IMG/VR virus record: IMGVR_UViG_3300032334_001259
Location: 124,001 to 188,000 of that record
From: a virus
DNA length: 64,000 nucleotides
Reading direction: 5' to 3' (one strand)
In this document: positions 5,029 to 33,516 of the stretch, in pieces
How positions within the stretch are numbered: the first letter of the stretch is position 1
How the letters are laid out: each line of letters starts with the position of its first letter
Translations under genes and position numbers: made by a program
The notes under the pieces: model-generated
Databases searched by the model: none
What the model saw: the letters and a program-made list of their open reading frames with translations, nothing else
What the model was told of the DNA's origin: nothing

Positions 5029-5850
5029 TTAACTACTTCCACCAAGTCTTGTTCCAGTAACAACCCATGTTGCATAGGCTATACCGTTGATATATTTACC
5101 AGCAGCACCACCTGATCTACCATTTCCACTTGTAGAACCAGCTTGTCCAGGACCACCGCCAGATGCTCCTCCAGCACCACCAGATGTTCTTGTACCTGCA
5201 CTACCACCATTAGCACCGCCAGCACCAGGATCATAACCAGCACCGCCGCCACCACCAGTTCCATTATAACTACTGCCACCACCTAAACAACTACCATAAG
5301 TTGTTCCACCGTCAGTTGCACCTCCGCCACCGCCACCACCAGCAAGTGTGCCATTATTTGTAATGTTTACAGGAGACTGTAACAATAATGCATTACCACC
5401 AGGAGATCCACTACCGCCAGCACCACCAGTACCGTTACCGCCAGCACCACCAGTCCCTATGATAAAACCATTATTGATTAAATTAACAGTATCACCAGCA
5501 GCAAATCCAGTAATAGTCAGTGCATATGAACCAGTAGAACTACTACCAACATAAATTCCACTATCAATAGTTAAATTTACTTTTGTAAAATTAGCTACAT
5601 AACCGCTTACCGCAGCTGGATTTAAAGTATAATTTTTTGTATCAACCGAGATTGTTAAATCAACAGTAACTTTATTTTGTGTTCCACGAAACTCACTAAA
5701 ATTTAAATCAGTAGTATCAAAAGTGCCAATAGTTAAAGTTGATGGTTTATAATATGAAACACCACGATAAGCTGAAATAGCATTACCCAACTGGAATTCA
5801 GTATTAATATTTGCATTAAGGGCAACTTTACCAGTTAACGAAATTGTCAT
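5029..5850 (-). CDS. Glycine-rich tail tip adhesin
   Basis: 273 aa. The N-terminal module (residues about 20-60) contains AYRGVSYY followed by LNFSEFRG, a motif pair also present in the neighbouring 209-aa protein (NYRGTKWY, SSDFYG). A beta-rich middle is followed from about residue 130 by a long polyglycine/Gly-Ala-Ser region, ending in a conserved tip motif (INGIAYATWVVTGTRLGG) seen in many phage receptor-binding tails. Glycine-rich regions of this kind form polyglycine-II bundles in known T4-like adhesins such as S16 gp38. A role in receptor recognition is therefore likely. The gene is preceded by two other glycine-rich genes in the same operon. Confidence 0.8.
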   Translation of the reverse strand: MTISLTGKVALNANINTEFQLGNAISAYRGVSYYKPSTLTIGTFDTTDLNFSEFRGTQNKVTVDLTISVDTKNYTLNPAAVSGYVANFTKVNLTIDSGIYVGSSSTGSYALTITGFAAGDTVNLINNGFIIGTGGAGGNGTGGAGGSGSPGGNALLLQSPVNITNNGTLAGGGGGGGATDGGTTYGSCLGGGSSYNGTGGGGGAGYDPGAGGANGGSAGTRTSGGAGGASGGGPGQAGSTSGNGRSGGAAGKYINGIAYATWVVTGTRLGGSS

Positions 5851-5851
5851 T

Positions 5852-6205
5852 TTAAGTCCAAGTTATTTTTATTCCGCCATTGGTGCCATTGCCACCAGCA
5901 GCACCAATATTATAATTTATAACTGTGCCAGCAGGTATTTGTCCACCAGTATAAACTACTTTTATATATGCGCCAGCACCGCCTGCTCCACCACCTGCAC
6001 CACCAGCATATCCAGTTGTGCCACTACCATTTCCGCCTACACCAACATTTGCATTAGTAGCACTTGCAGTAGTAGATGTGCCACTTGCAGTTCCAATTAC
6101 ACCACTATTACCATTAAGGAATGTAAAACTTTTTGGATTAGGTATAAATGGTGTTATACCTACATCTATCGTTCCGCCACTGCCACCTGCTCCGTATTGT
6201 GCCAT
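5852..6205 (-). CDS. Small glycine-rich tail protein
   Basis: 117 aa starting MAQYGAGGSGG at the ATG at 6205. This overlaps the upstream stop as TGATG and has a GGAG ribosome site 7 nt before it; an in-frame TTG one codon earlier is less likely. The C-terminus (YIKVVYTGGQIPAGTVINYNIG, then GGNGTNGGIKITW) is the usual closing half of a glycine-rich phage-tail domain. The opening half of such a domain (ITIEIWGAGGGG) is in the preceding gene. The two coupled genes may therefore be one ancestral domain split in two. Confidence 0.75.
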   Translation of the reverse strand: MAQYGAGGSGGTIDVGITPFIPNPKSFTFLNGNSGVIGTASGTSTTASATNANVGVGGNGSGTTGYAGGAGGGAGGAGAYIKVVYTGGQIPAGTVINYNIGAAGGNGTNGGIKITWT

Positions 6206-6834
6206 CAATATACTCCAGTATCACCAAATCTATCAACAATATCACCATAACCATTTGGTTGTGATGTCTGTGTATATCCAACTGGCACATCATCTCTTGT
6301 AAAAAAGTATGTAGTTCCACCACTGCTATTTTGCACACCAAATGATTGTAAATTATCTTTAGGACCACGATCACCCACATCTACTGAAAGAGGTGGAGGA
6401 GGAACAGGAACTTTTCCACCATCACCACCTTTACCACCACCAGCAGTATAATCTGCAGTAACTGTTCCACCACTTATTGGTTGGTAGTTAGAGATACTTG
6501 TGTCTCCGCCTTTTGCACCATCACTACCATTAGAACCACCGCCGCCGCCACCAGCACCCCATATTTCTATAGTAATTGTATTTCTATAAAGTGGAACGAC
6601 AAAACTGCCACTACCAGAACTATTACTGAATAACACACCAGCAGTTGCAGGATCATTTGGTTGTTTACCATAAAAATCGCTTGATTTAATAGTGCCACTA
6701 TTAAAGTAACCAAATAATAGATTACCTGGATAATACCATTTGGTACCACGATAATTGTTAAAATCATCACCTAACCCAAATACGTCACTTATAATATCAG
6801 TGCTTACCGCACCAGAGTTAGGGACAAAAGCCAT
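6205..6834 (-). CDS. Glycine-rich tail protein with fibre N-module
   Basis: 209 aa. The N-terminal module has NYRGTKWYYPGN and SSDFYGKQ, paralogous to the N-terminus of the 273-aa adhesin downstream. It is followed by TITIEIWGAGGGGGG, the usual start of a glycine-rich tail domain, and a Pro-run (VPVPPPPLSVD). The ribosome site is GAGGTAATTGAATG, and the gene starts 4 bp after the stop of the S74 fibre gene. It probably forms part of the adhesion tip with its neighbours; the exact role is unknown. Confidence 0.75.
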   Translation of the reverse strand: MAFVPNSGAVSTDIISDVFGLGDDFNNYRGTKWYYPGNLLFGYFNSGTIKSSDFYGKQPNDPATAGVLFSNSSGSGSFVVPLYRNTITIEIWGAGGGGGGSNGSDGAKGGDTSISNYQPISGGTVTADYTAGGGKGGDGGKVPVPPPPLSVDVGDRGPKDNLQSFGVQNSSGGTTYFFTRDDVPVGYTQTSQPNGYGDIVDRFGDTGVY

Positions 6835-6838
6835 TCAA

Positions 6839-8692
6839 TTACCTCGCTGCTTTTAATGCCTCGACCTCTGCACTTAATTCCTTGATTGCTTGAATTAGAA
6901 GTGGAACAAGTTTATCATATTGTACAGTAAGATAATTTTCACCACTCTTGCTACTACCGTCTTCTGCAATATCAAATGGTGCTGCTTTAATGACTTGCGG
7001 AGCAACTTGTGCAATTTCTTGTGCAAGAACACCAATATGCTCGTTGTTATCACCTACACCCATTGTAAATGCGAGTTCATTTGGTCGATAAGTGACACCA
7101 CGAATTGCTTTAACTTTATCAAGTGCATTTGGTATTTCAACAATATCTGTTTTTAAACGTTGGTCGGAATAAAATGCAACGATATCTTGTGTAGCAAGTA
7201 TACCACCTGTTACACTTAAGTTTGCATTGTTAAATGTAACACTACTATTACCAGCAAGATTTGCACTATCAGTATAAATTGCAACACGACCAGCAGCACC
7301 ACCACCAGCTACAGGTGTTGGAATTGTATACCAATTTAAGTTACTGCTACCGTCAGTAATAAGAGCTTGTCCACTACTACCGCCAGCAATTTGCACATTA
7401 CCAACATTACCTAATATTACTTTATATGTGCTTGTTGGATTAAATGTAACTGTTCCATTTGCAAAACCTGCTGCACCGCTAACCTGTAATGCAGTAAGTG
7501 TTCCAACGGTTGTAATATTTGTTTGTGTTGCTGTGCTGATAGTTCCAGTTAATGTTGCACTACTATTACCAATAGTGCCCGCCATTACATAATTTGCATA
7601 AACATTACCATTATTACTGCTACCATTAGCAATTAAGTTACCAACATAAACATTTCCTGTAAAAGCATTATTTGGTCCACCAACAATAATGTTACCAACA
7701 AAACCCGCACCACCTGATACCTGAAGTGCGCCAGTTGTTGTACTATATGCGGGTGATGTGCCACTTATGACTGCAATTTCATTACTTGTTACAACATCCA
7801 AATCACCAAGAACAATCAAGTTACCGTTAATTTGAACATCTGCATTAGCAAGAATGTCAAGTGCATCTACTACAGCACCGCTACCATTACGTGTTCTTAA
7901 ACGTATAATACCATTGTTAAGAGTATTATCCATACGAAGTTCATTACTGTAAACAGTAAATGCACCTTGTCCAGTGGTTCCAATATTGATACCACTGTTA
8001 TTTGTAACACTTAAAATACCAACTGTACCAGTGTTTTGGTCATTACGCATAAAGCTACTACCGCTGACACCATTAAGTGCGGCACTATCACTAGCTTGAC
8101 CAACAAATTTATTATTGCTTACAAAAGCAGTTGATGCAATATTAAAACCTGGTGATATTGTGCTAAAACCACTGATTGTTGTTGAAGGTGTAAATGTTGC
8201 ATCTTTACTTAAAATAGCATAACGAGTGTTATTAATCTTCATGCTTATAACATCGTGACTACCAGCAAGAGTGTCAACAATACTCTCACTAACAACTTGA
8301 CCAGCACCACCAAGTGGTCCAACAACCACCCAACCCGTTCCATTATATACATTAAGTTGTTGGTTAGCACTATCAAACCATAAATCACCTGCAACGCTAC
8401 TTGTAGGCGCAGATGCACTGTTAGTTGCACTTGCAATGTTCTTAAAAATTACACCGTTATAAACTTGTAGAGCACCTTTTGTAGTGTTATACCAAATCTG
8501 TCCAACAATTGGATTGCTTGGTTGACTACCACTTGCAAAATTTTCCAACATACTTAAGAAATTTTGATCAAGATACTGACCATAATTGGGGTAATTTTTA
8601 CCAACAAGTGAAAGACTTGTGCTGTTATCTATTGTTCCATCGGCAATAACGATTGAATTAGCACCATTTGAATATGTAATGGTATAAGACAT
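6839..8692 (-). CDS. Tail fibre with C-terminal S74 intramolecular chaperone
   Basis: 617 aa. The N-terminus (residues 1-125) has the phage fibre module TSLSLVGKNYPNYGQYLDQNF and two GQIWYNT/GDLWFDS-type repeats. The middle is a run of beta repeats. The C-terminal 109 residues are a Peptidase_S74 domain: SDQRLK (S509, K514 as the expected Ser-Lys dyad), then HIGVLAQEIAQVAP, then a YDKLVPLLIQAIKEL helix. This domain drives trimer folding and then releases itself by self-cleavage just before the SD of SDQRLK. A long trimeric fibre is therefore expected, with a mature end near residue 508. A CATAAATA late box and CGGAG ribosome site precede the start. Confidence 0.9.
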   Translation of the reverse strand: MSYTITYSNGANSIVIADGTIDNSTSLSLVGKNYPNYGQYLDQNFLSMLENFASGSQPSNPIVGQIWYNTTKGALQVYNGVIFKNIASATNSASAPTSSVAGDLWFDSANQQLNVYNGTGWVVVGPLGGAGQVVSESIVDTLAGSHDVISMKINNTRYAILSKDATFTPSTTISGFSTISPGFNIASTAFVSNNKFVGQASDSAALNGVSGSSFMRNDQNTGTVGILSVTNNSGINIGTTGQGAFTVYSNELRMDNTLNNGIIRLRTRNGSGAVVDALDILANADVQINGNLIVLGDLDVVTSNEIAVISGTSPAYSTTTGALQVSGGAGFVGNIIVGGPNNAFTGNVYVGNLIANGSSNNGNVYANYVMAGTIGNSSATLTGTISTATQTNITTVGTLTALQVSGAAGFANGTVTFNPTSTYKVILGNVGNVQIAGGSSGQALITDGSSNLNWYTIPTPVAGGGAAGRVAIYTDSANLAGNSSVTFNNANLSVTGGILATQDIVAFYSDQRLKTDIVEIPNALDKVKAIRGVTYRPNELAFTMGVGDNNEHIGVLAQEIAQVAPQVIKAAPFDIAEDGSSKSGENYLTVQYDKLVPLLIQAIKELSAEVEALKAAR

Positions 8693-25631: not shown

Positions 25632-27965
25632 TTATGCTACACGCACACTAGTGCGTTCAGTATGACTGCTGATATCATCAAGTAAACTTATCATGTCATC
25701 AAACTTGGAATTTAAAGCTGTAAGCAATTCATCACTCATATTTCTTGTATTCATTGCGGTTGGTATTTGTTCTTTAACTGTTTGTGCACTTTTTGCAGCA
25801 TCAGTTAATAATTCTGTTAAGTTTTCTGGTAATACTGCTTCTGTTCCGTGCAGCATCGCAAGGTATCCAGATTTTGGTCCAGAAGCAATTCCGCCATTGT
25901 CTAATGGTGGTAATCCGTAACTTCGACGTATATCATTAACCGCAGCATCACTGACGCTAGTCATACTTGCAGGTTGCTGATTTGGTTGTGTGTTATTACC
26001 ACTGTTCATGAACCAATCTGGCATATCAATTCTTGACCTTGTATCAGATTGTATTGCCTGTGTTCTTGCAAGCATATTTCGGTCAGATTGAGCCAACCGT
26101 TCACCCATTCTTCTTATTTCAGCCCTATTTTCATCTTCGCTTATATTACCAACAAAACCACCCGCACCAGTAATACCTGATTCAGTAAACTTTCTTATTA
26201 AACCAACAATTGCTTCGGTAACATTCTTAAATGCCCATGCAGTATTTTCTAAAACTTTACTATCAAGCATTGTTTCTTGAATTTGTTTAGCCATATCACG
26301 ACCAGCATTTGCTGCTAATATTAATTGTGTATCAAGTTGTGCTGAAGTAGCTTTTTGTTTTTCTACTGCTTGTTCAGCTGCGGTTATTGATTCTTGCGTT
26401 ACACGATTTCTTTCTTGTAGTTCACCCTTATACGCTTCTCTTAAATCTTGGACTAATCCAGTAACACCAGCCATACCAGCACGAGCTAAATCAGTGCTTG
26501 CGATTATGTCTGCTTTCATGGCACTACCCAAATCAGCATTTATTCTTCGCATACTTGCGCCATCTAACGTGCCGTCTTGAAAATTTTGCATTGCACGATT
26601 AATACTTTCACCAAAACCAGCCATATTAGACATCATATATGCACTTGCTGGTGTAATTGCTTGCCCAAATACCACAGTTTCCATGAATGCTTTACGTTGT
26701 GCAACACTCATATTCTCCATTGCGGCGATGGTGCCTAAACGTGTTTTCTCATCCATGCCAGCAAGTTTCTGCTGAAAGGCAACTTCGTTTGTTTGATCAC
26801 GAACTTCTTGTTCACGGCGTTTTGCATCTTCACCAGTAATAGCACTTATAATGCGTAAATTCTCTGCATACTTGGATGTTTGCTGTGCAACTTCTTCATT
26901 ACTACTTGTAAGACTGCCACCACTTTGACGCATTAAACCCATAGTATCAGCAATTAAACCTGCTTGTTCTCTAAATGTAAATCCAAGTTTTTGTAACTCA
27001 AGACTTACACCACTTTTACGCATGGTAGTTCCAACATCACCCATACGTTTAGCGGCTTCAGTACTGCTTATACCCAACAATGATAAATTTTGTGTGTTTG
27101 CTTTAACAACTTCTGCAAATTCAGGTAGTGTCAAGTTTAATGCTAAACCAGCGTTAGCCATATCACGTATACCACCCGCAAATACTAAACCTGCACTATT
27201 GATTAAATTAAAATTAGTATAAAGTTTATCTAATTCACTTGTTAATATCGGAATTGCAGTTTGTGCCAGTTTATCTGCGGCTTCACTTGCACTATTAAGA
27301 AAAATTCCCAATCCTTTTGCCGCTATACCAACACCAGCAGTAATAATGCCACCTATACCAGCACCCAATGCTGCAACAACTGGTGCCGCCGCCATTGCCG
27401 CATCACCAAATGTAGATAAAGCATTACCAGCTACACTTGTTGTTTTAAACAATACGCTTGCCGCCGCCGCTGTAGTAGTGCCAGCCATTCTTATGTCAGT
27501 TTCACCACCTTGATATGCTTTTACAAGTGATAATGAATTTGTATAAAGTGAACTTAAAATTGTTGTTCCGCCTTGTATTGCACCATTAAACTTTACAAGT
27601 TGTGAGTTTAATGACATTACAACGTTATTTGCATAACCTTGATTACGAATATACAAATCAAATTTTGCTTTAAACTCTGGCGGAACTACTTCTTTAACTC
27701 TATCATTAAGTGCTTGTAATTGTAACTGTGTTTCACGTGCAGTCAATCTGCCTTTGCGTTGTTCAGACAGTATTTGCTGTTCTTCACGTTGACGTTCACG
27801 CATTAAACGTTTATAAGATTCATTAGTATCTTTTGTAGTTTTATTAGTTTCTGTTAATTTTAATTTCAATGCTTCTGTAGCAAGATCTAATCCGCTGAAC
27901 TTTGTTGTTACATTTTTAAGTGCTTCATTAAAAGCAGCTAATTCGGCATCGCTTATTTCAGCCAT
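25632..27965 (-). CDS. Tape-measure-like tail protein
   Basis: 777 aa. The N-terminal 110 residues are a charged coiled coil (RERQREEQQILSEQRKGRLT). Residues about 160-230 are a long hydrophobic Ala/Gly stretch (AAPVVAALGAGIGGIITAGV) of the kind found in tape-measure proteins. From residue 690 there is NGGIASGPKSGYLAMLHGTE followed by AVLPENL, a C-terminal motif shared by many tape measures. It corresponds in role to T4 gp29 (590 aa). It lies back to back with gp26 and the overlapping chaperone-like ORF, which also fits a tape-measure function. The ribosome site is GGATGA. Confidence 0.78.
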   Translation of the reverse strand: MAEISDAELAAFNEALKNVTTKFSGLDLATEALKLKLTETNKTTKDTNESYKRLMRERQREEQQILSEQRKGRLTARETQLQLQALNDRVKEVVPPEFKAKFDLYIRNQGYANNVVMSLNSQLVKFNGAIQGGTTILSSLYTNSLSLVKAYQGGETDIRMAGTTTAAAASVLFKTTSVAGNALSTFGDAAMAAAPVVAALGAGIGGIITAGVGIAAKGLGIFLNSASEAADKLAQTAIPILTSELDKLYTNFNLINSAGLVFAGGIRDMANAGLALNLTLPEFAEVVKANTQNLSLLGISSTEAAKRMGDVGTTMRKSGVSLELQKLGFTFREQAGLIADTMGLMRQSGGSLTSSNEEVAQQTSKYAENLRIISAITGEDAKRREQEVRDQTNEVAFQQKLAGMDEKTRLGTIAAMENMSVAQRKAFMETVVFGQAITPASAYMMSNMAGFGESINRAMQNFQDGTLDGASMRRINADLGSAMKADIIASTDLARAGMAGVTGLVQDLREAYKGELQERNRVTQESITAAEQAVEKQKATSAQLDTQLILAANAGRDMAKQIQETMLDSKVLENTAWAFKNVTEAIVGLIRKFTESGITGAGGFVGNISEDENRAEIRRMGERLAQSDRNMLARTQAIQSDTRSRIDMPDWFMNSGNNTQPNQQPASMTSVSDAAVNDIRRSYGLPPLDNGGIASGPKSGYLAMLHGTEAVLPENLTELLTDAAKSAQTVKEQIPTAMNTRNMSDELLTALNSKFDDMISLLDDISSHTERTSVRVA

Positions 27966-27991
27966 TAAATTTCATCCATTTTTTTCTAACT

Positions 27992-27999
27992 GTAAATAA
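27992..27999 (+). promoter_or_regulatory. Possible late promoter for gp26 (GTAAATAA)
   Basis: A plus-strand late-type box about 33 nt upstream of the gp26 start, in the 66-bp divergent gap. Confidence 0.4.
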
Positions 28000-28012
28000 T
28001 ACTGTCAATTAT

Positions 28013-28020
28013 TATTTATG
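28013..28020 (-). promoter_or_regulatory. T4-type late promoter variant (CATAAATA)
   Basis: Minus-strand box 48 nt upstream of the tape-measure start at 27965, in the divergent gap shared with gp26. Confidence 0.55.
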
Positions 28021-28031
28021 GAACTCAAAAA

Positions 28032-28874
28032 ATGCAAAATTCAAATCCACTTGCTAAACATTTTCGTCAGCCAGCAGTATTTCTTAAACTGCCTAGTGGT
28101 GGAAAATATTGGGCACCAGATAGTTTAGACCTTCCACCAAATGGTGAAGTAGGTATTATGCCAATGACAGCCAAGGATGAAATACTATTACGCACACCAG
28201 ATGCACTTATGAATGGTCAAGGTGTAGTAAATGTAATACAAAGCTGTGTGCCTGCTATTAAAAATGCTTGGGCAATGCCAACTATAGATGTTGATGCACT
28301 TCTTATTGCTATACGTATTGCAACTTATGGTGAAACCATGGAAATGGATAGTAAATGTCCTAAATGTGAAGCAGAAAGCCGCCATGGATTAGATTTAAGT
28401 AGAGTTCTATTTGGCGTTAGAGCACCAAATTATAATCAAATTGTAGAAATAGATGGATTAAAGATTAAGTTTAAACCACTTAACTATGTGCAAAGCACTA
28501 AAAATAACATTGCTGGATTCGAAGAACAAAAGATTATACAGTTATTAAACAATGAAAACATTGATCCAGATACACGCAAAGCACAGTTTGATATGCATCT
28601 ACAAAATATTATCAAAAGTAATATAACTTTGTTGAGTGGTGCCACAGAAAGTATTACTACTGAAGACGGAACTATTGTTACTAATCCAGAGTTTATATCA
28701 CAATTCTACGATAATACTAACAACCATATTATTAAAACTGTTCAAGCAAAATTAAGAGAATTTGCTGATACAGCACAATTACCACCTACACGTGTGCAAT
28801 GTGAAGCATGTGATAACGAATATAATGTTAATGTAACTTTTGATTACGCAAATTTTTTCGAGCCACTATCTTAA
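28032..28874 (+). CDS. 26: Baseplate hub subunit gp26 / tail chaperone-like
   Basis: 280 aa of the T4 baseplate protein family (gp26-like). Recognisable parts are FLKLPSGGKYWAP (18-30), VGIMPMTAKDEILLRTPDALMNG (40-62) and the helical DALLIAIRIATYGE. Two cysteine pairs, CPKC near residue 112 and CEAC near residue 257, could hold a metal. Close to the 3' end the message contains A_AAT_TTT in the zero frame (28850-28856), and a second ORF is open in the -1 frame from there. Frameshifting would replace the last few residues and give a product of about 352 aa. The family is known; the frameshift is inferred. Confidence 0.88.
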   Translation: MQNSNPLAKHFRQPAVFLKLPSGGKYWAPDSLDLPPNGEVGIMPMTAKDEILLRTPDALMNGQGVVNVIQSCVPAIKNAWAMPTIDVDALLIAIRIATYGETMEMDSKCPKCEAESRHGLDLSRVLFGVRAPNYNQIVEIDGLKIKFKPLNYVQSTKNNIAGFEEQKIIQLLNNENIDPDTRKAQFDMHLQNIIKSNITLLSGATESITTEDGTIVTNPEFISQFYDNTNNHIIKTVQAKLREFADTAQLPPTRVQCEACDNEYNVNVTFDYANFFEPLS

Positions 28875-28908
28875 CTCTCACCCAAGAAGAATTATTGAAG
28901 TTAGTGGC
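28850..28908 (+). promoter_or_regulatory. Candidate -1 programmed ribosomal frameshift signal
   Basis: The slippery heptamer A_AAT_TTT (28850-28856, zero frame of gp26) is followed after 5 nt by a perfect 7-bp stem: GCCACTA at 28862-28868 pairs with TAGTGGC at 28902-28908. The -1 frame is open from the TGA at 28841 through to the stop at 29087. The overlapping ORF has no ATG near its start. Spacing and stem are those of classical -1 sites such as the lambda G/GT site. Confidence 0.7.
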
Positions 28909-29089
28909 GGATTATGAGGGTGAAGTAAAGAGTATTAAAAAGAATATTCTTAAAATGTGTTGGTATATGCGTGGTGGTGTCACTTATGACGAACTCATGG
29001 ATATGAGCGTAACTGAACGTAACATTATCGGTAGCATTATTGAAGAAAACTTGGAAACTACTAAAAAGTCAGGTATGGCTTTCTTCTGA
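28856..29089 (+). CDS. gp51-like ORF expressed as -1 frameshift extension of gp26
   Basis: The -1-frame ORF supplies 77 residues after the slip site. Its core (TLTQEELLKLVADYEGEVKS, then CWYMRGGVTYDELMDMSVTE, then ERNIIGSIIEENLETTKKSG) resembles the downstream part of phage tail assembly chaperones and the ORF called gp51 in T4-like marine phages. There is no ATG before the middle of the domain. A TTG at 28895 with a weak AAGAAG upstream is the only other plausible start and would give 64 aa. The arrangement next to a tape-measure gene mirrors lambda G/GT/H. A role in loading the tape measure or in hub assembly is inferred. Confidence 0.75.
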   Translation, partial: FRATILTLTQEELLKLVADYEGEVKSIKKNILKMCWYMRGGVTYDELMDMSVTERNIIGSIIEENLETTKKSGMAFF

Positions 29090-29098
29090 TCAGTTTTA

Positions 29099-29115
29099 AG
29101 ATGCCTACGGCATCT
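29099..29115 (+). other. Hairpin after the gp26/gp51 unit
   Basis: A perfect 7-bp stem (AGATGCC/GGCATCT) with a TAC loop, 10 nt after the stop at 29089. It is the first of two tandem hairpins. It may protect the 3' end of the message or assist termination. Confidence 0.6.
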
Positions 29116-29119
29116 GTTC

Positions 29120-29160
29120 AGGGACTATCGTCCCTTCACTTTCTTTCTTTCTTTCATTTC
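29120..29160 (+). terminator. Probable terminator of gp26/gp51 transcript
   Basis: The stem AGGGAC/GTCCCT (29120-29125 with 29130-29135) has loop TATC and is followed by a pyrimidine-rich run with repeated CTTT to 29160. The T tract is interrupted, so termination may be partial. Confidence 0.55.
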
Positions 29161-29169
29161 TCTTCTAAG

Positions 29170-29530
29170 ATTTAATATTAGTTTCATTTAGACTGGATTT
29201 TGGACATAGATTTCCTTAAGCAGGAAATCCATATCCAAACAGCTTCATTTGAGCTATCATAAGGACATTAGCAAACGGAACTTGAAACCAAGTGGGGCGG
29301 TTAGCCTGTACCCCTTCACATCCTGTAGATTTTACCAACGGACCTACTATAAACCCTTGCTAACGAACTTATATTAGTAGAGGTTGCTTTTTCTCAGAGC
29401 CTCAATCATTTAGCCTAACGTTTGGCCAAACGATTCCATCATAGCAATGTCGGGGTGCTACCAACCTTCAGTTAATACCTATTTGTGGATATGCTGCCTA
29501 AATTGCCTGTGAGCCAAAGGTGAGTTATAA
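29170..29530 (-). ncRNA. Candidate structured RNA in gene-free region
   Basis: No ORF is seen in 29090-29552, and the stretch is visibly richer in G+C than its neighbours. A 14-bp hairpin (29202-29215 with 29223-29236) pairs completely only on the minus strand, where two positions are G-U; on the plus strand these become mismatches. Other helices include the palindrome CGTTTGGCCAAACG (29419-29432), TAGCA/TGCTA (29442-29460), and CTACTA/TAGTAG between 29343 and 29380. No tmRNA tag, tRNA-like ends or group I intron core was found. It could be a free RNA or the 3' region of the oxygenase message. The class is unknown. Confidence 0.45.
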
Positions 29531-29552
29531 TCTATATATCGTAAAATTAAAA

Positions 29553-30110
29553 TTACCAGAGATTTTCTTCAAAGCCTAATTGTATTGCTATTCGTGTTTC
29601 TGGAATGTTTTCTACACTGTGTGGTACAAAAGCATTCAACAGTGTCCATTTATACAATGGAACTACAATACTGTCAATTTCTTTTACCTGGTCATACTCT
29701 AATTGTAGCCCACGTGAAAGATTAATAGAACTGTCAATTGCCTCGTAAAAAACAGTTCTATGATGTTCTCCGCCTGTTTGTATCAAATACATTAGTGTGT
29801 ATTTTCTTGTTCTGTCAATATGCGGAGCAACCATACTACCCCGCACTACTGTTGTTTGAGCCAAACTACAGCCATTAAACTTATCACTTATATTAGTTTT
29901 AATCCAATCAAATAGCTGTGGATGCAGTGATTGTTTATGAAATCTTTTGTTTTGCTCCTCTATATCATTACGAACTATAGTTCTGTCCATGTATGGTATA
30001 GTTGGATTTTGAACATAAGGATCAAATATATCTTGCGAAGTATAATTTAAAGTTAGATCAATTAACTGTGTTGGAACACTTGGTAAATTGTCTAATATCT
30101 TGTAATGCAT
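29553..30110 (-). CDS. 2-oxoglutarate/Fe(II)-dependent oxygenase-like protein
   Basis: 185 aa. The iron-binding facial triad is readable: H97 and D99 in APHIDRTR and H164 in FVPHSVEN. R173 in ETRIAIQLG is the likely 2-oxoglutarate ligand. The length fits a compact double-stranded beta-helix enzyme, a class common in T4-like marine phages. Family members hydroxylate proteins, nucleotides or small molecules; the substrate here is unknown. It is the last gene of the accessory operon. Its ATG overlaps the TctC stop (TAATG) and a GGGGTGAG ribosome site precedes it. Confidence 0.8.
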   Translation of the reverse strand: MHYKILDNLPSVPTQLIDLTLNYTSQDIFDPYVQNPTIPYMDRTIVRNDIEEQNKRFHKQSLHPQLFDWIKTNISDKFNGCSLAQTTVVRGSMVAPHIDRTRKYTLMYLIQTGGEHHRTVFYEAIDSSINLSRGLQLEYDQVKEIDSIVVPLYKWTLLNAFVPHSVENIPETRIAIQLGFEENLW

Positions 30111-30964
30111 TACTCACCCCTAATACTTTTAATAATTTTTATAAATTTGTTTTCACTTGTAATTTCTATTCTACCAAATTCATTAACAAAATCTTTCCAA
30201 GATTGGTTATTACGAATTGTCTTGATTTGATTGTTTATATTTTGAATTTGTTCTTGAGATAAGTTGGCACCAACTAAAACTATACTATCTTGCAATAGTG
30301 GTAGATCCACAGCCTTTGGTAGCAATTTATATACGCTTGGTATTGTGACACCATCTTTAACAATATCACTTTCACTACCACTAAACAAACAATTTACTTT
30401 GTCTAAATTTTTACCTAACCATTCACTATCAACAAGAGTATAATCAAATTCATTGCCTAGAATTACTTCTCTAGCCTTACCACTATTGCCTACAATTACA
30501 ATATTTGCACTGTCTCCATTAGGAAACGCACCTATGATTTTTTGAATTATATTATTGCTTGCTGTGGTAATTGCAATGTTTTTGCGAGTAGTCTTATCTA
30601 AGAAATTCTGCATTCCTAAATTAGTTTTATCTTTGCGATAACAAAGACTGTAACTATAATAGTATAGTTCTTGGATCACTTTAACATTATCACTATATGT
30701 TAGTTTACAAGCATCATCAACTACACCCCAACTACCTGTAAGATAAACTAATGGTTGTTTTTCATTCTCAATTGCATTTTTAACAACTGCACAATTTGGT
30801 AGAGCATTTATGGTATTTTTGATACCAGATTTTTCCTGTATTTCTTGTAGTATTGTTGCAGTTTTACCAGTAACTCCACCTGGTGGAACGCCAACTGTAA
30901 TATCAAAAGCATATGCATTTGATGCAAATAAAACTGCAAATAATGTTGTAATATATCGTATCAT
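30110..30964 (-). CDS. TctC/Bug-family periplasmic solute-binding protein
   Basis: 284 aa from the ATG at 30964, chosen because AAGGAG lies 6 nt upstream and the protein then begins with a clean signal peptide (MIRYITTLFAVLFASNAYA, cleavage after A19). After it comes ITVGVPPGGVTGKTATILQE, the N-terminal ligand loop of TctC-type proteins. The family binds carboxylates in the periplasm and delivers them to a TctA/TctB permease. The gene is 10 bp after the tctA-like gene and overlaps the oxygenase start. No TctB-like small membrane protein is present, so the system is incomplete or borrows the host's. The solute is unknown. Confidence 0.8.
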   Translation of the reverse strand: MIRYITTLFAVLFASNAYAFDITVGVPPGGVTGKTATILQEIQEKSGIKNTINALPNCAVVKNAIENEKQPLVYLTGSWGVVDDACKLTYSDNVKVIQELYYYSYSLCYRKDKTNLGMQNFLDKTTRKNIAITTASNNIIQKIIGAFPNGDSANIVIVGNSGKAREVILGNEFDYTLVDSEWLGKNLDKVNCLFSGSESDIVKDGVTIPSVYKLLPKAVDLPLLQDSIVLVGANLSQEQIQNINNQIKTIRNNQSWKDFVNEFGRIEITSENKFIKIIKSIRGE

Positions 30965-30974
30965 TCTATTCTCC

Positions 30975-32276
30975 TTAAAAATATAAATTATACACAATGT
31001 GTATAACTGAATCAAATTGTTGCGCCAGCAAAAACCCTAATACTAGTGGTAATAAGTCATGTCGTCGTAACAAAAACCCAATCGGTGCAAAAATTGCACT
31101 ACAAATCAAATAAAAAGAAAGTTGATTTGTATTATACCCCATTTGAAATACTGCAAATAATAACAAAACTATACTTAAAGTATTAAAAAGTCTTAATCTT
31201 TTAACCATTGCTTTAACTAAACTTGCAGCAAGCGGCCAACTGCAAACAAACCCAATTATATTTGCGAATCCAAAAATAGCAAATATCCACCAAAAATTAT
31301 TAACCAACCAATCATAACTGTAATTTAAACCACGAGTAGATGTAATATCATATAGTAGATATTCACTTGCATTTATTGGTATCGCAAAACAAAACAATGG
31401 AATAAAACTAGCAACCAATCCACTGTTATGTGCACTATCACTAGAAACCAAACCACGTATATCACCATCTTTGTTATATGTTTTACGATTAACAAACTTT
31501 TCAACAGCCCATGCAAAATTACTGCTAATAGTAATACCCAACGAAGGTATAAAACCACAAACAAAACCAATTATACTACCTCGCATAAAAGTATAAGGAT
31601 TTATATCAATAATGTATTTTTTGCTTTTTATGTTAACTAGATTTTTGATTTGTGCTGATGACGATAACATCATGGGTAAACTATATAGAAACACTAATAT
31701 AATAATAGTAGGTATACCGCCATATAGATAAGGAATATCAAAGGTGGCGAATTGTTGTTTTGTTACTGGATCATACCCTACTTTACCTATAAAATAACCA
31801 CTTACCAAAAATACCGCAGATAATAATATATTTTTACTAGTGAATATAGTAATAAGGTAAGTTAACAATAATATACAAAACTGTAGTTTGAAATTGTATA
31901 AAACAGAGTAATTGTTACCTATCCAAAAAATGCTACAAGCTAATATGACTGCTACAATACTACCTAAAAAACTTGCCATAGCGCCACTGCCTAATGCAGT
32001 ATTAGCTTGACCACGTAGTGTTAACGCATATCCTTCTTTGACACTTGGTAAACTAGTAGTTTCAGTTGGTATACCAAGTATTGTTGCACTAGCACCACCA
32101 AAATACTGTGTACATGTAACCATACCAATATAAAAACTTAAAACATTATGTGGGTCTAAATCAATTAATAGTGGATAAAACAATACCATAGCCAAACTGT
32201 TATGTAAGCCAGGCATAATTCCAACAAATAAACCAGTTGCGCACCCTAATAATGCAAAAAGTATTATTTCACTCAC
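30975..32276 (-). CDS. TctA-family tripartite tricarboxylate transporter permease
   Basis: 433 aa with about ten hydrophobic membrane segments. TctA motifs are present in both halves: FVGIMPGLHNSLA (17-29), GGASATILGIPTE with VKEGYALTLRGQA (about 60-90), and in the second half GFVCGFIPSLG and SSDSAHNSGLVASFIPLFCFAIP. It is shorter than usual TctA proteins (about 500 aa). Translation begins at a GTG at 32276 that overlaps the PP-loop gene by 8 bp. It would be the inner-membrane permease partner of the binding protein encoded directly downstream. A phage-borne TctA/TctC pair suggests altered carboxylate uptake in the infected cell. Confidence 0.88.
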   Translation of the reverse strand: MSEIILFALLGCATGLFVGIMPGLHNSLAMVLFYPLLIDLDPHNVLSFYIGMVTCTQYFGGASATILGIPTETTSLPSVKEGYALTLRGQANTALGSGAMASFLGSIVAVILACSIFWIGNNYSVLYNFKLQFCILLLTYLITIFTSKNILLSAVFLVSGYFIGKVGYDPVTKQQFATFDIPYLYGGIPTIIILVFLYSLPMMLSSSAQIKNLVNIKSKKYIIDINPYTFMRGSIIGFVCGFIPSLGITISSNFAWAVEKFVNRKTYNKDGDIRGLVSSDSAHNSGLVASFIPLFCFAIPINASEYLLYDITSTRGLNYSYDWLVNNFWWIFAIFGFANIIGFVCSWPLAASLVKAMVKRLRLFNTLSIVLLLFAVFQMGYNTNQLSFYLICSAIFAPIGFLLRRHDLLPLVLGFLLAQQFDSVIHIVYNLYF

Positions 32277-33366
32277 CTAACAAATACCTTTTGCTCCATG
32301 TTCCAACTAAACCGTTGTGTATATTGTTTCCATTTATAAAATATGGATCAACATTATTTGAAATCCATTCTAAACCTGTAAAATATTCCGTAGCAAAATC
32401 ACTGTTACTATCCCATATCCACCGATTCTTTTCTTTTAATATTGATTTTTCTTTTCCTAAACTAAAAGTTTTATCACTCCAATATGGATAACATGCGGCA
32501 CGTACCGCAGAAAAATATTCGCCACCATTGAAATTACCATCATTATTGAAGTTTTTTTCTATAAATTCAAGTGTATAAGTTTTATTAATATAATTTTTCA
32601 CTAAGTGTGATTGTTTTATTGTTACTAATGGCGAGTCAGGACTTACATAAAAAGGTTCTAAACTTATTGGTGATATTGAATTATAACTATTTCCAAAATT
32701 ATAAGCATTAGTTACATCTAAAAAAGCACTATACCAAACACCATTTTCAAACCAAATTCGTGGTTTTTCTAATCCAATTATTACACCTACTTTATTTTTT
32801 TCACTCTTCTTTAACCAATCACTATTTTCAAAAATTAATTTTGGTTTACATAGTTGTTCTAGTGATAGTGATGGTTCACTTGTCATAAACCACTCTATAT
32901 TTGGCATTATACCTTTTTCAAATTGTGGTTTCATATCCATTTTTGAAACTTTTATACCATTAATGATAATGATTGAGTTAAGCAATTCACTACCAGCATT
33001 TAAAACTTCACTGTTTGCTAAATTGTTTTGTAAATCATAACTGCTATACCAATAAGCAACTTCATCTATTTTAATATTATTTTTGAGAAATACTTTAAGT
33101 GCATTACTGCTATCGCTGCCACCGCTATAAAGTAAAATAAGATAATCATACTTTTGACGCAGCTGTAATGCTCGTTCCATGTATAAATCTTCAATATTTG
33201 ATTGCGGTTCATTTTTCCAATCATGACTACCAAAAATATTATCATGGTAATAAAAACGTATATCATAGCTGTTTCGTGATTGCGCCTCTATAATAGTCTG
33301 TAGTTTGTTATAATAAATGTGTTGATTGTCTAACAACCAATGACCAAACTGTGCTGCATTACTCAT
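32269..33366 (-). CDS. PP-loop ATP pyrophosphatase (asparagine synthase/ExsB-like)
   Basis: 365 aa from the ATG at 33366, which has AAGG six nt upstream; a TTG five codons earlier is less likely. The PP-loop SGGSDSS is at residues 81-87 after a buried strand (YDYLILLY), marking the adenylating N-type ATP pyrophosphatase fold used by asparagine synthases, QueC and related ligases. No glutaminase domain is present. The rest (WYSSYDLQNN, LEKPRIWFENGVWYSAF, YPYWSDKTFSLGK) is unlike any enzyme I can name. It is the first gene of the four-gene operon and ends within the tctA start. It probably adenylates a carboxylate or similar group, but the substrate is unknown. Confidence 0.8.
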   Translation of the reverse strand: MSNAAQFGHWLLDNQHIYYNKLQTIIEAQSRNSYDIRFYYHDNIFGSHDWKNEPQSNIEDLYMERALQLRQKYDYLILLYSGGSDSSNALKVFLKNNIKIDEVAYWYSSYDLQNNLANSEVLNAGSELLNSIIIINGIKVSKMDMKPQFEKGIMPNIEWFMTSEPSLSLEQLCKPKLIFENSDWLKKSEKNKVGVIIGLEKPRIWFENGVWYSAFLDVTNAYNFGNSYNSISPISLEPFYVSPDSPLVTIKQSHLVKNYINKTYTLEFIEKNFNNDGNFNGGEYFSAVRAACYPYWSDKTFSLGKEKSILKEKNRWIWDSNSDFATEYFTGLEWISNNVDPYFINGNNIHNGLVGTWSKRYLLGE

Positions 33367-33516
33367 AAAAAACCTTAACAAAAAAATATATATAAGTCAA
33401 TTTTTGTTAGCAGTTTACTGCATACAGCACGGCGTCTCTTGGCTCTAACCAGATAAAAGGATCACTATCCTTTGCGTCGTTTTTATTGCTGACGCCACTA
33501 TGTGGCGTTACGAAAT
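33367..33516 (-). promoter_or_regulatory. Structured leader of the accessory operon
   Basis: A gene-free 150-nt leader upstream of the PP-loop gene. On the minus strand it contains ACGCCAC-ATA-GTGGCGT (33492-33508), AAAGGAT-AGTG-ATCCTTT (33456-33473) and GCAGT-AA-ACTGC, with AAGG at the start codon. The GGCGTC of the first hairpin (33491-33496) can instead pair with GACGCC (33431-33436), so two mutually exclusive folds are possible. This resembles an attenuator or riboswitch leader, but no known class was recognised. Confidence 0.45.
33456..33473 (-). terminator. Possible terminator/attenuator hairpin
   Basis: A perfect 7-bp stem (AAAGGAT/ATCCTTT) with a 4-nt loop, followed on the minus strand by TTATCT. 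It could end the nuclease/gp46/gp47 transcript or act as an attenuator for the accessory operon. Confidence 0.45.

Follow-up and report, generated by a model that had tools for sequence, protein, structure and literature searches.

The gp26 locus and its conservation in relatives

The question raised by this locus is whether a gp26-like gene and the short open frame overlapping its 3' end are two genes or a single gene read in two ways. In the window, i.e., the whole 64,000-nt stretch of viral DNA analyzed here, the gp26-like gene was found on the forward strand at 28032..28874, stop codon included, and encodes a TAC-N-type short form of 280 aa; no second PF12322 gene was found in the virus record of 338,435 bases from which the window is taken. 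On the same strand, the -1 frame was open directly after the TGA at 28841-28843 and ran over 28844..29089, with its stop codon at 29087-29089. The original prediction had placed both frames here and expected a long product of about 352 aa; the coordinates were confirmed on the sequence, and reading of the frames gave 352 aa, with a post-slip extension of about 75 aa, of the TAC-C type, that carries conserved motifs and was modeled as all-helical. The predicted fusion reads ...FDYANFFRATILTLT... at its junction, and the same protein is obtained from a slip at either of two overlapping heptamers, both in phase with gp26. One is A_AAT_TTT at 28850..28856 (+), whose position and phase were as predicted; the other, T_TTT_TTC at 28853..28859 (+), was absent from that prediction and is the more widely conserved of the two.

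By comparison of sequences and by analogy with lambda G/GT, it is very probable that two forms of a single tail assembly chaperone are encoded at this locus and arise through a -1 slip at A_AAT_TTT_TTC with the help of a hairpin. Most ribosomes on gp26 would stop at 28874 and release the 280-aa short form, and some would slip back one base at A_AAT_TTT_TTC, aided by the downstream hairpin, and read on to 29089, giving the 352-aa long form with its all-helical C-terminal extension. Many short and few long copies would then cover the tape measure and, during assembly, link it to either the baseplate hub or the tail tube, as suggested by analogy with lambda G/GT and T4 gp26/gp51. The frame architecture, the conservation of the slip site, the lack of a conserved start, the one gene against two in T4, and the homology between the gp51 extension and cyanophage tails were established by sequence comparison; slipping in the cell, its efficiency, and the binding and loading of the tape measure by the 352-aa product are what we infer.

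The comparison set included the window and 128 viral-contig loci from two scans, with some contigs present twice, and contained 90 non-redundant fusions. The same -1 register was observed in 129/129 sequences, each of which also had AAATTTT, TTTTTTC, TTTTTTT, or a nested set of these in phase. A heptamer was also found in 11/11 isolated jumbo phages (Atu_ph07, GAP32, PBECO4, RaK2, PA5oct, CBB, Vibrio 2.275.O, SCTP-2, RAS14, XbC2, and Phosso), as T_TTT_TTC in all but RAS14, which has T_TTT_TTT, and with -1 ORFs of 73-85 codons; the cyanophages P-SSM2 and S-PM2, along with KVP40, showed the same register and heptamer. The tail motifs FFR...WxMRGG...ENLETTKK were kept, the conserved FFR and a Leu-rich stretch began directly at the slip, and the tblastn alignments of the tails started at residues 1-6 of the -1 frame, well upstream of any conserved start. 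No relative with an intact ORF and a lost heptamer, the outcome named in advance as contrary to the prediction, was found among the 129 sequences, the isolates, and KVP40. Collectively, these comparisons support programmed frameshifting at the 3' end of gp26 very strongly.

Protein family, T4 counterparts, and the neighboring gene

The zero-frame protein matched PF12322 (T4_baseplate; E 1.8e-20, 74 bits against a curated cut-off of 24.5) and phrog_150, a baseplate hub family (E 3.8e-24), and no family match was obtained with the -1 tail. The AlphaFold2 model of the short form had a pLDDT of 85.8 and many baseplate hub protein matches in BFVD; Foldseek analysis of this model against the PDB gave nothing significant, and phmmer searches of the PDB chains with the window gp26 and T4 gp51 returned nothing meaningful. 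The all-helical tail model (pLDDT 88.1) showed weak fold matches, among them the 'tape measure chaperone' of Citrobacter phage Moogle (E 0.5) and the hub assembly catalyst of ZZ1 (E 3.5). In several distant phages, the BFVD matches to the gp26 fold and to the tail fold had neighboring accessions, i.e., A0A343LED6/A0A343LED7 in Leptospira phage LE4, A0A191ZCG4/A0A191ZCG7 in Erwinia Special G, and I1VX76/I1VX77, a hint that the arrangement with two ORFs reaches beyond PF12322. Extension of the frameshift set to Erwinia Special G was ruled out, as this phage had no PF12322 match.

Both T4 gp26 (208 aa) and T4 gp51 (249 aa) were members of PF12322 (8.8e-64 and 3.9e-52, respectively), and gp51 is composed of this domain and an extension of about 48 residues beyond it. 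The frameshift tail of cyanophage P-SSM2 scored 70 when aligned to the gp51 extension, where shuffled sequences averaged 22 (sd 4; 0/1000 shuffles as good), and matched gp51 of Aeromonas phage 25 by tblastn (3e-4). Compared directly with the gp51 extension, the window tail was equaled by 169/1000 shuffles, and profiles of the window-type fusion or of its tail gave no usable score against T4 gp26 or gp51; the window tail by itself is too diverged, and the link to gp51 was therefore drawn through those of cyanophages. The ORF had been described as a gp51/T-like extension, and the extension part of this description held, by way of the cyanophage tails; the ORF is not gp51 itself, which corresponds to the whole long form.

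Gene 26 of T4 contained no heptamer, and its -1 frame opens just 10 nt before the stop codon. PF12322 was found at two places in T4 and at one in every other record counted, save SCTP-2, where the profile search found none; T4 was thus the only two-gene genome counted by PF12322, and Aeromonas phage 25 has separate genes 26 and 51 by annotation. T4 therefore differs from its relatives within the same family: it appears from these sequences to carry the short and long forms as two divergent genes, the first of them without a slip site, where the relatives have one gene and a slip. This contrast explains what gp51 is, namely a long form bearing the extension that matches the cyanophage frameshift tail. 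In the T4 record (L131), the genes for gp26 and gp51 lie at 5803-6429 (-) and 6480-7229 (+), and their annotation names hide the short and long forms of one protein.

Frameshifting is reportedly kept in several T4-like groups. The G-T frameshift has been described as conserved in long-tailed phages except T4, with the ratio of short to long forms being essential in lambda (PMC5009743), and T4 gp51 has been described as essential and of a function called unknown, with gp26 and gp51 listed as hub assembly chaperones (PMC3004832). The T4-like tail assembly chaperones were identified by Vladimirov, Gautam, and Davidson (2022, Virology 566:9-15), a study taken here through two later papers that cite it, one for T4-like phages with one short gene and a second, longer one that is fused (PMC10885494) and the other for poly-T slip sites in the TAC-N genes of such phages (PMC12846349). 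As far as the TAC-N/TAC-NC proteins are described there, the window locus has in common with them a PF12322 short form, a frameshifted or fused long form, and a poly-T slip site, with no difference in kind. The reading of gp26 and the -1 ORF as a T4-like counterpart of G/GT was supported, and fits both the T4 comparison and the published work; the locus is a well-supported addition to the T4-like frameshift chaperones already published. The general point being published, the worth of the present data lies in confirmation, breadth, and site-level evidence: a broad set of uncultured and jumbo phages, selection at the codon level, a lineage with A_AAT_TTT only, and a clade-specific hairpin. They indicate that frameshifting is nearly universal among the jumbo phages of T4 type, the cyanophages, and KVP40, and that the single gene of these contrasts cleanly with the two genes of T4.

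Other known systems resemble the locus to a lesser degree. As with lambda G/GT and P2 E/E+E', a short form and a rarer -1 extended form would be made from one gene; however, gp26 is larger and its extension small, the slip sequence is different, and the likeness seen is one of arrangement. In addition, gp26 and the candidate tape measure gene are transcribed divergently rather than together. In the tail chaperones of Vandenendeviridae and Andersonviridae, a T run at the TAC-N 3' end likewise serves for a -1 slip, and the weak fold match to Moogle belongs here, although their slip site, GTTTTT, differs from that of the window (PMC12846349) and no significant homology to them was seen.

The gene beside gp26, at 25632..27965 (-), encodes 777 aa and is a plausible candidate for the tape measure, judging by its position and by a one-to-one BLASTP comparison in which it weakly matched GAP32_244 (9e-5). 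It had no Pfam or PHROG match; its RaK2 counterpart, assigned by position, is annotated as similar to tape measure, and its GAP32 counterpart gave a weak match to the tape-measure family phrog_167 (0.028). A large divergent ORF was found beside gp26 in 80/81 relatives with enough flanking sequence. Such a neighbor bears on the alternative that the frameshift is real and that both products are parts of the baseplate hub, or hub-assembly factors, which do not bind the tape measure. The PF12322, PHROG, and T4 names all refer to the baseplate hub, older T4 work was split on the presence of gp26 in the hub (PMC3004832), and the CBB homologue of gp26 is annotated as 'structural protein', which could place it in the virion, unlike lambda G/GT. 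Nevertheless, the finished T4 particle lacks gp51 and both proteins are listed as hub assembly chaperones (PMC3004832), and short and long forms of one protein beside a candidate tape measure constitute the G/GT pattern. Moreover, the T4 tape measure gp29 is itself a hub component, so the hub and tape-measure roles may be one. We consider the alternative unlikely.

Slip site codons and the downstream stem

The analysis of the slip site showed NNT TTT TTC/TTT in 84/90 non-redundant genes, with the remaining six reading A_AAT_TTT_TCA. In the 84 genes, the base before the Phe codons was always T, within a varying codon (AAT, GAT, AGT, or CAT, and also CGT, TAT, or TCT in the isolates and cyanophages). 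The first Phe codon was TTT in 84/84 and the second TTC in 82/84, TTT in the other two, counts taken over related sequences that are not independent draws, with the same pattern also present in the distant isolates. In the gene bodies, TTT and TTC accounted for 69% and 31% of the Phe codons, respectively, and the frozen codons are therefore not explained by codon bias, given that TTT makes up only 69% of body Phe codons. The spread of the site over distant isolates argues against neutral inheritance, and the codon pattern points to T_TTT_TTC, which most of the 129 sequences carry in the form TTTTTTC or TTTTTTT, as the heptamer under selection in most lineages. A_AAT_TTT was the only canonical heptamer in six distant non-redundant genes (L037, L039, L040, L041, L046, and L047), and in L023.

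The -1 product might also arise from slippage of RNA polymerase on the T run, with insertion of one U, instead of ribosomal slipping. Polymerase slippage occurs in some bacteria and phages, and a run of six T at the site would give the same protein; however, this run is short, and the six distant genes have just five T (AAATTTTTCATAA) while retaining the in-phase AAATTTT. Furthermore, the second codon was kept as TTC in 82/84 genes, though TTT would lengthen the run, and a hairpin past the site is characteristic of slipping by the ribosome. Both mechanisms are covered in one review (PMC5009743), and slippage by the polymerase is, on these observations, very unlikely here.

A stem downstream of the site would favor the ribosomal slip. 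As predicted, the 5' arm GCCACTA (28862..28868, +), 5 nt past A_AAT_TTT, was confirmed to pair perfectly over 7 bp with the 3' arm TAGTGGC (28902..28908, +). In the 10 sequences of the window clade, 95.7% of the cells were paired in this stem, with five invariant pairs and two pairs altered on both sides in a compensatory manner, and the pairing fell to 19-56% when the stem partner was slid. Covariation was modest, as 29/500 shuffles equaled the score, and for this reason the comparative evidence for the stem is fair, not overwhelming. The fold downstream of the site in the window alone was unexceptional (z -0.9 to -1.7), so that the stem is convincing only through its conservation. Over 90 sequences, the 60 nt past the heptamer had a mean folding z of -0.94, compared with -0.12 for control segments from these genes. 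Other clades folded different hairpins and one large clade had no stem; alignment folding of the distant A_AAT_TTT clade gave no common structure, though its single sequences folded alike. An alignment of this junction across relatives, proposed with the original prediction, thus showed the slip site conserved, a conserved start missing, and the stem kept in the window clade but not universal.

The stem lies 5 nt from A_AAT_TTT but just 2 nt from T_TTT_TTC, and A_AAT_TTT may therefore be the working heptamer in the window clade. Speculatively, and with considerable doubt on our part, the nested A_AAT_TTT_TTC could be a two-site signal in which each lineage uses one heptamer, with a hairpin spaced about 5-6 nt from the one in use. 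T4 would then have substituted gene duplication for this signal: two divergent promoters would govern the ratio of the chaperone forms in T4, and recoding would do so in most T4-type phages.

Starts for the second ORF and other features of the window

The -1 ORF had been predicted to lack an early ATG, and this was correct for ATG, the first being codon 35 post-slip (about 28955); it did not extend to other start codons, since TTG 28895 and GTG 28904 come earlier. Any of the three might begin a separate small gene, perhaps coupled to gp26 termination, as the ORFs overlap or nearly touch and coupling would be possible. Several isolated phages are annotated in this way: the tail is a separate hypothetical protein in 9/11 jumbo-phage genomes, and is unannotated in the other two, RaK2 and PA5oct. 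However, no conserved start codon was found before the conserved core of the tail among the 90 non-redundant fusions, nor the conserved start with a ribosome site that the original prediction had named as evidence to the contrary. Starts varied in place and kind, 35/90 fusions had no ATG before the core, 17/90 had no ATG, GTG, or TTG, and just 5/90 had any start with a ribosome-site-like 4-mer. The conserved -1 residues FFR are already present at the slip site, and an independent start would leave the frozen heptamer unexplained; a separate gene is thus highly improbable, and in many deposited genomes the extension is overlooked or given a wrong start, appearing as a small hypothetical gene of its own or lacking annotation. 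Although metagenomic assemblies can have ORFs split by single-base errors, gene decay or an error in sequencing or assembly was refuted as the cause of the split, which is identical at the same base in 129/129 sequences and in finished isolate genomes, and its probability is negligible.

Other features were observed in the set and in the window. In the Ackermannviridae Salmonella phage Vi01 (L158), a PF12322 gene was followed by a short -1-frame ORF with a similar C-terminal motif (YSIFEISESMPW). No canonical in-phase heptamer was found at the 3' end of the Vi01 PF12322 gene, and the frames may be joined there through another signal.

Downstream of the -1 ORF, a pattern scan detected a terminator-like hairpin, AGGGACTATCGTCCCT, followed by a T-rich stretch, at 29120..29135 (+), one of 2 such hits against 0.9 expected. 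The intergenic stretch beyond it, 29160-29400 (+), contained a strong hairpin (TTGGACATAGATTTCC...GGAAATCCATATCCAA) with further pairings besides (z -1.5), and a small RNA could be one reading of this stretch; an Rfam search of window positions 27000-31000 gave no matches. Further along, on the reverse strand, a membrane gene of the TctA-family tripartite tricarboxylate transporters was found at 30978-32276 (-) (PF01970, 2.2e-62), followed by a gene for a secreted 300-aa protein at 30110-31012 (-), which had no Pfam match at 0.001 and looked by eye like a TctC-type binding partner. This TctA/TctC-like pair is an unusual phage cargo, possibly nutrient-uptake genes taken from a host. Finally, the gene at 32269-33381 (-) encodes a 370-aa protein with no Pfam match at 0.001 and an SGGSDS motif near its N-terminal third, and by eye this protein resembles PP-loop ATPases or asparagine-synthetase-type enzymes.
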